Notes under the pieces: generated by a model
Seen by the model: the letters and a program-made list of their open reading frames with translations, nothing else
Database searches by the model: none
What the model was told of the DNA's origin: nothing
NCBI RefSeq assembly: GCF_019357495.1
Contig: NZ_CP079110.1
Span: 558,001 to 622,000 of the forward strand
Direction: 5' to 3'
Origin: Nosocomiicoccus ampullae
GTDB taxonomy: Bacteria > Bacillota > Bacilli > Staphylococcales > Salinicoccaceae
DNA: 64,000 bases
Shown: piece after piece, positions 54,093 to 57,057 of the stretch
How the letters are laid out: every line of letters begins with the position of its first letter
Numbering within the stretch: the first letter of the stretch is position 1
Position numbers and translations under genes: made by a program

Positions 54093-54959
54093 GTGGCAAA
54101 ATTTAAAGATTTTAGAAATGATGTAAAGCCAAACTGGTGTCCTGGATGTGGTCACTTTAGTATACAATCTGCCATTCAACGTGCCTCAGCAAACGTTGGA
54201 TTAGAGCCTGAAGACTTAGCACTCGTTAGTGGAATCGGATGTAGTGGACGCGTGTCTGGTTACATTCGTTCATATGGATTCCATGCAACGCACGGACGAA
54301 GTCTTCCAATCGCTCAAGGAATTAAAATGGCAAATAAAGACCTCGAAGTTATTGCAACAGGTGGAGACGGAGATGGTTTTGCGATTGGTGTTGGACACAC
54401 AGTACACTCGATTAAACGTAATATCGATATGACTTACATTGTTATGGACAACCAAGTATATGGACTTACAAAAGGCCAAACATCACCATCAAGTGCGAAA
54501 GGATTTGTAACGAACACAACGCCAAAAGGTTCAATTGAAAGTCCAATCGTTCCTGTATCAACAGCAATGGCGTCAGGTGCAACATTCGTTGCTCAAAGTG
54601 TCTCTTCAGACATTAAAGGCTTAACAGCAATTATCGAAGCTGCAATTAAGCATGACGGCTTCGCATTTGTAAACGTCTATAGTCCATGTGTCACATATAA
54701 CAAAGTAAACACATATGACTGGTTTAAAGAACACGTCACAGACATCTCAGAAATCGAAGATTATGATCACGAAGATCGTAATAAAGTAATGAATTATATC
54801 AATGAATATGAAGGTCTATTAAAAGGTATTTTATATCAAGATAAAAATTCTAAATCATATGCAAAACATATCGACGGTTATTTAGAAGAAGCAGTCGTTA
54901 ACCATGATTTAAAATTAAAAGAAGAACAATTTAATGAACTCATGAACCATTTCGCTTAG
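54093..54959 (+). CDS. korB: 2-oxoacid:ferredoxin oxidoreductase, beta subunit
   Basis: A 288-residue thiamine-diphosphate-binding subunit. NWCPGCGHF (start), SGIGCSGR and the TPP motif GGDGDGFAIGVGH are present. No extra 4Fe-4S domain is seen, as in other two-subunit enzymes. The GTG start at 54093 follows AAAGGATGA. It lies 17 bp after korA and is followed by a very strong terminator. Confidence 0.9.
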   Translation: MAKFKDFRNDVKPNWCPGCGHFSIQSAIQRASANVGLEPEDLALVSGIGCSGRVSGYIRSYGFHATHGRSLPIAQGIKMANKDLEVIATGGDGDGFAIGVGHTVHSIKRNIDMTYIVMDNQVYGLTKGQTSPSSAKGFVTNTTPKGSIESPIVPVSTAMASGATFVAQSVSSDIKGLTAIIEAAIKHDGFAFVNVYSPCVTYNKVNTYDWFKEHVTDISEIEDYDHEDRNKVMNYINEYEGLLKGILYQDKNSKSYAKHIDGYLEEAVVNHDLKLKEEQFNELMNHFA

Positions 54960-54961
54960 TA

Positions 54962-55000
54962 AAAAACGCAAATTAAGTCTACACTTAATTTGCGTTTTTA
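54962..55000 (+). terminator. korB terminator
   Basis: AAAAACGCAAATTAAG (54962-54977) pairs perfectly with CTTAATTTGCGTTTTT (54984-54999). Its bases ACGCAAA and TTTGCGTT also occur in the repeat array that follows. Confidence 0.93.
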
Positions 55001-55005
55001 TTTTT

Positions 55006-55230
55006 GTAAACGAAAATGATTGCTTTGTTAGCGTAAACTACCTAATCATCAATATAACGGAGGAGTCGTTAACGTAAACGGAGTTTGTGTTAAATAGTTT
55101 TTTATCTATTAACGATAAAGGGATTTATGTTAAAACACAACTCGTTTCGTTAACGCAAACGTCTTAATCGTCAACAAAACGAAGGACTCGTTAACGTAAA
55201 AGCAATTTGCGTTAACGAACATCTCAATTC
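55006..55230. repeat. Degenerate tandem array of GTTAACG motifs, 20.5/41-bp period
   Basis: The 376-bp gap between korB and the ABC exporter is mostly this array. GTTAACGTAAA-like words begin at 55006, 55027, 55048, 55068, 55089, 55108, 55129, 55149, 55170, 55190 and 55211, so spacing is 19-21 bp. Every second word is better conserved, giving 41-bp units at 55027, 55068, 55108, 55149 and 55190. The exact palindrome CGTTAACG occurs at 55067, 55148, 55189 and 55210. Segments 55026-55093 and 55148-55215 match at 53 of 68 positions with no gap. Mismatches show no codon bias and frames are closed, so it is not coding. Confidence 0.75.
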
Positions 55231-55335: not shown

Positions 55336-57057
55336 ATGCGTACAGTCTTTAGTTATGCGCTAAAGTATAAATGGATTATTATTATCGGACTACTACTCAT
55401 GTTTGTAGAGCTTGCTGTTGAACTGATACAGCCGCTATTTATTCGCGGAGTGATTGATGACGGTATTACCGTAAGCAATTTAAATAACGTTTGGATGTAT
55501 TTAGGACTTATGTTAGCCGCTTCGATCATCTCAACAATTGCTGGGGTATTTAATACATACTTATCAAGCTATGCAACGAACGCATTTGGTAATGATTTAA
55601 GAAATGCGATTTTTAGACGAGTACAACATTTTACGTTAGAAACTCTGTCTAAATTTAATGGGTCGACATTAATCACAAGGTTGACTCAAGACGTTTTAAT
55701 TTCAGAGATGTTAGTGTTTTTTGGGATGCGTATTTTACTTCGTGCACCGCTTCTTGTAATTGGTTCTCTTGTGATGTCGTTTGTCGTTAACGTTAAGCTT
55801 GGATTTTACTTAACACTACTGACACCAATTTTATTCGTATTTTTATTTGTCACAGCGACAATAGGTGCAAAGATTTTTAGTCGTATTCAAAAACGTCTCG
55901 ATAAAATTAACCGTTTCTTCCAAGAGAATTTAAGCGGTATGTTATTAATTAAAGTAAATAACCGAGCAGAATATGAATCAGAACGATTTAGTAATATCGC
56001 AGGTAAACTCCGTGATGATATGATTTTTGGACTCCGTTTAATGGAGTCAATTTTACCCGTATTATTACTTATTATGAATGGAAGTTTACTACTTGTACTT
56101 TATATATCATCTGATTTAATTCAAACAAATAACGTTCAAGTCGGTGAAGTTGTTGCGGTCATTAATTACGCGTTAAGAATGCAAGGTGGCTTCTCAATGT
56201 TTAGTTTCTTAATTATCTCAGCAACGCGCGCAAAAGCTTCAGCAGATCGTATTAGTGAAGTACTCCATGAAGATGTTGATGAATTAGATGACGGTAGAAA
56301 GATTGAACACACTGAAGGAAGCTCGGTCGAGTTTCAAAACGTATCTTTTAAATATGTGAATAGTGTTTCGAACATATTAGAAGATGTTTCTTTTAAAGTT
56401 GATAAAAATGAAACACTTGTCATTATGGGAGCGACTGGTTCAGGTAAAAGTTCTCTCGTTAACTTAATTCCAAGACTTTACGATGCAACAAAAGGTAATG
56501 TATATGTGGATGGTAAAAATGTAAAAGATTGGAATGTGAACGAACTCAGAGATTTAATCGGTTATGTACCACAATCAGCGGTATTATTCACTGGGACGAT
56601 TTTTGAAAATATGCTCTGGGGAGATGAGTATGCGTCTCTAAATGACGTATACGACTCGACAAGAAAAGCACAAGTTCATGAAAATATTATTCGCTTTGAT
56701 CATCAGTACAACACTCAAGTCGGTCAGCGCGGTGTACAGTTATCCGGTGGACAAAAGCAACGTCTCTCGATTGCTCGAGCACTCGTGAAACGCCCATCTA
56801 TTCTAATACTTGACGACTCAACAAGTGCATTAGATGCGACAACAGAGAATAGCCTCTGGGAAGAAATGGATAACTTAAATGTCACGAGAGTAATTATTAC
56901 TCAAAAAATTTCTACTGCAAAAACTGCTGATAAAATACTTCTCCTTGAAGAAGGAAAAGTATCCGCTATTGGAACACATGACTCACTTCTTTTAGAATCT
57001 GAACTTTATCAGTCTATAGTAGAAAGTCAGAAGACAGGAGGGTCGTTTGATGATTAA
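55336..57057 (+). CDS. ABC multidrug exporter half-transporter with degenerate ATPase site
   Basis: A 573-residue type IV ABC exporter half: six membrane helices (~1-320) and one nucleotide-binding domain. Walker A is GATGSGKSS and the signature LSGGQ is intact, but the catalytic Glu after Walker B is Asp (LILDDSTS) and the switch His is Gln (ITQK). Such a half needs a partner with a normal site, here the next gene, which overlaps by 8 bp. Resembles LmrC/BmrC-type halves. The substrate is unknown. ATG 55336 follows AGAGGTG. Confidence 0.88.
   Translation: MRTVFSYALKYKWIIIIGLLLMFVELAVELIQPLFIRGVIDDGITVSNLNNVWMYLGLMLAASIISTIAGVFNTYLSSYATNAFGNDLRNAIFRRVQHFTLETLSKFNGSTLITRLTQDVLISEMLVFFGMRILLRAPLLVIGSLVMSFVVNVKLGFYLTLLTPILFVFLFVTATIGAKIFSRIQKRLDKINRFFQENLSGMLLIKVNNRAEYESERFSNIAGKLRDDMIFGLRLMESILPVLLLIMNGSLLLVLYISSDLIQTNNVQVGEVVAVINYALRMQGGFSMFSFLIISATRAKASADRISEVLHEDVDELDDGRKIEHTEGSSVEFQNVSFKYVNSVSNILEDVSFKVDKNETLVIMGATGSGKSSLVNLIPRLYDATKGNVYVDGKNVKDWNVNELRDLIGYVPQSAVLFTGTIFENMLWGDEYASLNDVYDSTRKAQVHENIIRFDHQYNTQVGQRGVQLSGGQKQRLSIARALVKRPSILILDDSTSALDATTENSLWEEMDNLNVTRVIITQKISTAKTADKILLLEEGKVSAIGTHDSLLLESELYQSIVESQKTGGSFDD

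Follow-up and report, generated by a model that had tools for sequence, protein, structure and literature searches.

A helically phased intergenic array downstream of korB in Nosocomiicoccus ampullae, its dispersed copies, and 41-bp arrays of different sequence in sister genera

The array between korB and the ABC exporter

The intergenic region between korB and a gene for an ABC exporter was analyzed in the window, i.e. the whole 64-kb stretch of DNA considered here (C1:558001-622000 of the N. ampullae genome, hereafter G000, which comprises 1.55 Mb in two contigs). Orthologs of korB are found in N. massiliensis (94%) and Ca. N. stercorigallinarum (99%). The array starts immediately 3' of the T-run of the korB terminator, and the exporter gene lies downstream, outside the element (Table 1). 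The four exact CGTTAACG words pointed out in the earlier note were recovered at 55067, 55148, 55189 and 55210, as was the gapless match, at 53 of 68 positions, between two 68-bp segments 122 bp apart, the first of which starts at 55027. The eleven lattice positions that it had described, from ~55008 to ~55213, are present; most are clear and the one at ~55050 is very weak. The sites switch orientation in turn, which defines left (L) and right (R) half-sites. CGTTAACG occurs six further times in the window outside the array, so that the word alone is not diagnostic.

Table 1. Features of the region from korB to the ABC exporter (positions in the window)
Feature	Position	Strand	Details
korB-like 2-oxoacid:ferredoxin oxidoreductase beta subunit, upstream of the array	54093..54959	+	ORF of 288 aa
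korB intrinsic terminator	54961..55001	+	AAAACGCAAATTAAG-TCTACA-CTTAATTTGCGTTTTT, read in the sequence; also an inverted self-match
Extra weaker in-phase half-sites	55001..55057	.	centres ~55008 and ~55029; ~55050 very weak
Element of eight half-sites (four inverted pairs)	55059..55227	-	nhmmer 159.6 bits; model R1 115 bits
Inverted half-site pair 1	55064..55098	.	centres 55070.5 and 55091.5, 21 bp between them
Inverted half-site pair 2	55104..55138	.	centres 55110.5 and 55131.5; 40 bp from pair 1
Inverted half-site pair 3	55145..55179	.	centres 55151.5 and 55172.5; 41 bp from pair 2; holds the conserved GTTGAC variant
Inverted half-site pair 4	55186..55220	.	centres 55192.5 and 55213.5; 41 bp from pair 3
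ABC exporter half-transporter, downstream, outside the element	55336..57057	+	ORF of 573 aa

Autocorrelation of the array gave 0.631 at lag 122, 0.451 at lag 41 and 0.392 at lag 21. The shuffling control proposed in the earlier note did not reproduce these peaks: among 2000 Markov shuffles, none reached the values at lags 122 and 41, and two reached the value at lag 21. No 225-bp stretch elsewhere in the 64-kb window attained the lag-41 value. The description of a helically phased array of protein-type sites is supported. The statements that the array is not a CRISPR, a terminator or a coding region also hold; as to CRISPR, its units are tandem and are not separated by unique spacers.

The half-site word of the array recurs in the stem of the korB terminator, as ACGCAAAT / ATTTGCGT, and a second terminator with this word is located at G000:C1:1026502-1026546. 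The presence of the word in these terminators may be due to chance, or may reflect a half-site lying inside a terminator. A DNA-uptake-like word was considered as well and rejected, AACGCAAAT showing no over-representation in the window.

A dispersed element with constrained half-sites

The korB array is one copy of a discrete, oriented element of 163 bp, not a set of loose repeats (model R1: 115 bits, E 2e-33, G000:C1:613064-613224). The element is composed of four inverted half-site pairs, TTNACGCAAA-N5-TTTGCGTNAA, where the R half-site is close to TTTGCGTNAA(A/C)G and the L half-site is the reverse complement of R. Of 102 adjacent L-to-R distances, 101 measure 21 bp; those from R to L are mostly 19-20 bp, and the four L-R pairs are spaced by 41, 41 and 40 bp in most complete copies. 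Some details are specific to a position in the element, i.e. the GTTGAC variant and an A-rich linker. When elements follow each other in tandem, their outer pairs are mostly 121-123 bp apart, so that most tandem copies stay in phase.

A search of the N. ampullae genome identified further arrays in other intergenic regions, and its extension to relatives, as the earlier note had advised, gave about 10 loci in each of three Nosocomiicoccus genomes (model R1). The N. ampullae copies are spread over much of the chromosome, from 351 to 1482 kb. Among 157 genomes of the order, model R1 gave only weak matches outside Nosocomiicoccus, all in one sister genus. The array is kept in close relatives, and the loss of conservation that the earlier note had envisaged did not occur: arrays are present at corresponding places in two or three Nosocomiicoccus species, many of these positions being orthologous. 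The shared places, whose gene names are in part read from the proteins, are thiT/uppP, DUF554/asp23-like, GNAT/yfcC, two ykvI-like genes beside lexA, nif3/yfcC, dus, ylbF-like/NERD, korB, and opuC beside a ribosomal RNA operon.

It is the half-sites of the element that are constrained. A comparison of eight pairs of orthologous arrays from two species showed differences at 55 of 759 half-site positions (7.2%) compared to 156 of 868 other positions (18.0%; p=7e-11). Half-sites thus diverge 2.5-fold more slowly than spacers, with some ascertainment possible in these rates since the PSSM used as site mask was trained on the same arrays. Indels are rare in the eight pairs (five columns in total), and the four-fold sites of korB differ by 13.2% in the two-species comparison.

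Other arrays were noted in these genomes. In G002, which looks like Ca. N. stercorigallinarum, an array is located directly after the terminator of the tmRNA gene (L190:2530-2740). N. ampullae contains a second array family, with a site near TATCGTNNACGA (L163, L165, L166 and G000:C1:491966-492091), which lies outside the window and likewise has lags close to 20 and 41. Also outside the window, genes that are NERD-domain-like as read from their translations adjoin two arrays belonging to different families (L162:2953-3864 and L163:1603-2507); the NERD-like protein of L162 had no NCBIfam match.

Periods of 41 and 51-52 bp across genera

The sister genus represented by G003 has its own 41-bp arrays at at least 10 loci, with a different site (CGTAAAgTTGTG-n4-CACAAgTTTATG), and a sequence-blind scan of a third genus (G011) gave many 41-bp arrays of unrelated sequences. 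Periods were determined by tandem-repeat finding in stretches of ~180-200 kb from Nosocomiicoccus and these two sister genera. Of the 31 intergenic arrays in the five genomes covered, 29 repeat every 41 bp (with 42 bp and multiples) or every 51-52 bp; the other two are a 30-bp array and a 77-bp case which resembles a tRNA cluster. Three other genera, sampled in stretches of 140-200 kb, gave no intergenic tandem arrays, and no 41-bp array was recovered from 0.97 Mb of korB neighbourhoods of other Bacillales.

The arrays of the sister genera are made of near-perfect, homogenised 41-bp tandem units. In the third genus, the gap between moaB and moaC contains 41-bp arrays of differing sequence in four species (L300, L302, L303 and L305) and none in two; at other orthologous-looking places of this genus, the consensus units have retained the dyad and changed the spacer. 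The arrays are over-represented between convergent genes, with 12 of 28 in this position versus 14% of gaps of at least 100 bp (p=0.0002, an optimistic value since a few of the 28 arrays share a locus).

A second, five-turn period class is visible in N. ampullae, where two 52-bp tandem arrays with an internal dyad CACTATC / GATAGTG are located outside the window at ~1,101.0 and ~1,102.5 kb of G000:C1 (L285:1033-1278 and 2494-2847). Relatives with a 51-bp period are present in two sister genera. G003 has 51-bp arrays at L260:13300 and L269:19560. Other arrays of G003 have longer dyads, such as CTGCCAATTC / GAATTGGCAG.

Candidate explanations

The same 41-bp spacing with different letters in sister genera points to a putative protein-bound feature of the chromosome. 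We favour, with slightly better than an even chance, a reading in which the array is a lattice of predicted half-sites for a putative, probably dimeric and oligomerising DNA-binding protein, with a likely structural role at gene ends. A dimeric protein would occupy half-sites every 20-21 bp, i.e. every two helix turns. Since the half-sites alternate at this interval, all bound subunits would be on the same side of the DNA, able to contact their neighbours, and the protein would oligomerise along that side, presumably in a cooperative manner. In favour of this reading are the rigid spacing, the slow change of the half-sites, the lack of arm covariation, the dispersal to many orthologous positions, the 41- and 51-52-bp periods and the enrichment between convergent genes. 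Its role would probably be structural (nucleoid, insulation or supercoil platform), mostly at the 3' ends of genes, and not the control of a single gene; one role for all copies is a guess from their position. Of the options given in the earlier note, the nucleoid-protein site comes closest to this reading, with the binding protein itself still putative. In the sister genera, a lattice of the same pitch (41 bp, four turns) would be built from different half-site sequences. Sequence replacement at an orthologous place, as in the moaB/moaC gap, implies that such a lattice would need several proteins or a loose specificity. The homogenised tandem units of the sister genera, which are what a passive satellite would show, also count against the lattice.

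More tentatively, the feature inherited in the three genera could be the pitch (41 or 51-52 bp), with half-site sequences replaced in place and fast-changing DNA-binding proteins co-evolving with satellite-like, chromosome-organising arrays; we regard this as possible, at well under an even chance. Sequence is the usual criterion for grouping intergenic repeats. The property common to these arrays is the helical period, found across genera in unrelated sequences, so that a sequence-based repeat search would miss these arrays. No earlier description of arrays with a 41-bp pitch was found in the open-access literature searched. If the protein lattice is true, the arrays would offer a directly testable example of spacing as the organising principle of bacterial DNA, and possibly a fast-evolving family of binding proteins.

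The main rival, which we consider rather unlikely, is a bacterial satellite DNA with no host function, whose units are homogenised by unequal crossing-over and gene conversion and whose 41/51-bp periods arise from unit copying, e.g. by a helix-phased recombination or slippage step. The near-identity of tandem units in the sister genera agrees with it, as do the different sequences of the same period at one orthologous place and the 244-245-bp module duplications in Nosocomiicoccus. A passive satellite with a helix-linked unit length would explain the homogeneous units but not the slow half-sites. Half-sites change much more slowly than the spacers of the same element, and in 24 sister-genus arrays the dyad arms are half as variable as other columns (0.042 vs 0.082, p=0.006; the best dyad of many sister-genus consensus units is individually not beyond chance); copying alone predicts neither. 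The persistence of orthologous positions across species also argues against it. The "expanding minisatellite" of the earlier note suits the near-perfect 41-bp units of the sister genera but not the degenerate, spacing-conserved copies of Nosocomiicoccus. If the arrays are a passive satellite, they would be an unusual bacterial example, in which unit length follows the helix repeat.

Plasmid centromeres and origin iterons present binding sites ~20-22 bp apart, about two helix turns, in arrays. The ~20-bp spacing and alternating sites of the Nosocomiicoccus arrays can be likened to plasmid centromere iterons, and a partition- or centromere-like complex could form if several arrays on the chromosome were bound by a segregation protein, ParR-like (ribbon-helix-helix) or similar. 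We consider this improbable, as the arrays are scattered from 351 to 1482 kb and no partition gene lies beside the arrays read. They further differ from plasmid iterons in that their sites alternate, that ~10 copies are located on the chromosome and that the copies read have no neighbouring gene for partition or replication. An origin from a phage, virus or plasmid was rejected, as searches of such collections with a single exact degenerate pattern and a single blastn query retrieved no similar array.

The correspondence with known intergenic repeats was also considered. REP and BIME are intergenic, palindromic and regularly spaced, with alternating units, and are mostly located between convergent or co-directional genes (PMC3733652, PMC2817692); REP palindromes carry a GTAG or CGTC tag at one end (PMC3733652). 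The Nosocomiicoccus units are also regularly spaced, alternate in orientation and lie at gene ends. A reading of the arrays as RNA elements, i.e. BIME- or REP-like 3' UTR hairpins that stabilise or terminate transcripts, would agree with this placement and with the stability of the predicted folds (z -5.8 and -5.3), but we hold it to be very improbable because the arms lack covariation. Identity within 136 pairs of Nosocomiicoccus equals that of a within-genome permutation (z=-0.12), and in 24 distinct sister-genus arrays 93 arm changes are uncompensated vs 1 compensated. Since the arms do not covary, the half-site pairs look like DNA half-sites for a protein and not like RNA hairpins. Most of the apparent paired arm changes were contributed by the copies of N. 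massiliensis and are consistent with a shift of the site throughout that species, from GTTAAC to GTAAAA. Inspection of several loci by eye placed the array after an intrinsic terminator, which also speaks against RNA elements; the arrays may for this reason be little transcribed. Rfam gave only sub-threshold matches for the array, with no family above its gathering score.

Unlike REP/BIME, the arms of the arrays are not kept complementary, and the 41-bp pitch is constant with differing sequences in sister genera. No match to the RAYT transposase (Y1_Tnp, PF01797) was obtained in G000-G003, G005, G008 and G011, where controls matched. RAYT-mobilised REP/BIME were rejected, there being no Y1 transposase match in these genomes and no hairpin covariation.

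The STAR elements of Staphylococcus aureus are repeats of unknown function scattered in intergenic regions; at the gapR locus they consist of 14-bp motifs with 40-44-bp spacers, and STAR loci are not common to different species (PMC3532100). The Nosocomiicoccus arrays are likewise dispersed and intergenic, in a related bacterial group. They differ in that many array loci are common to the species and that sites alternate, whereas STAR motifs are direct. The STAR motif T(G/A/T)TGTTG(G/T)GGCCC(C/A), searched as TNTGTTGNGGCCC, had 0 matches in three Nosocomiicoccus genomes, and a STAR element was rejected on this basis.

The earlier note had also suggested that the array could be a cooperative operator controlling the exporter or korAB, to which its location between korB and the exporter promoter would be suited; this is extremely improbable, as about nine or ten similar elements adjoin unrelated genes and the presence of the array does not track the korB-exporter order in the genomes compared. 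A dedicated operator of either is ruled against because other genera of the family have korB followed by the exporter with a plain terminator and no array, and N. massiliensis keeps the post-korB array though it is followed there by a convergent gene for an SNF2-type helicase.
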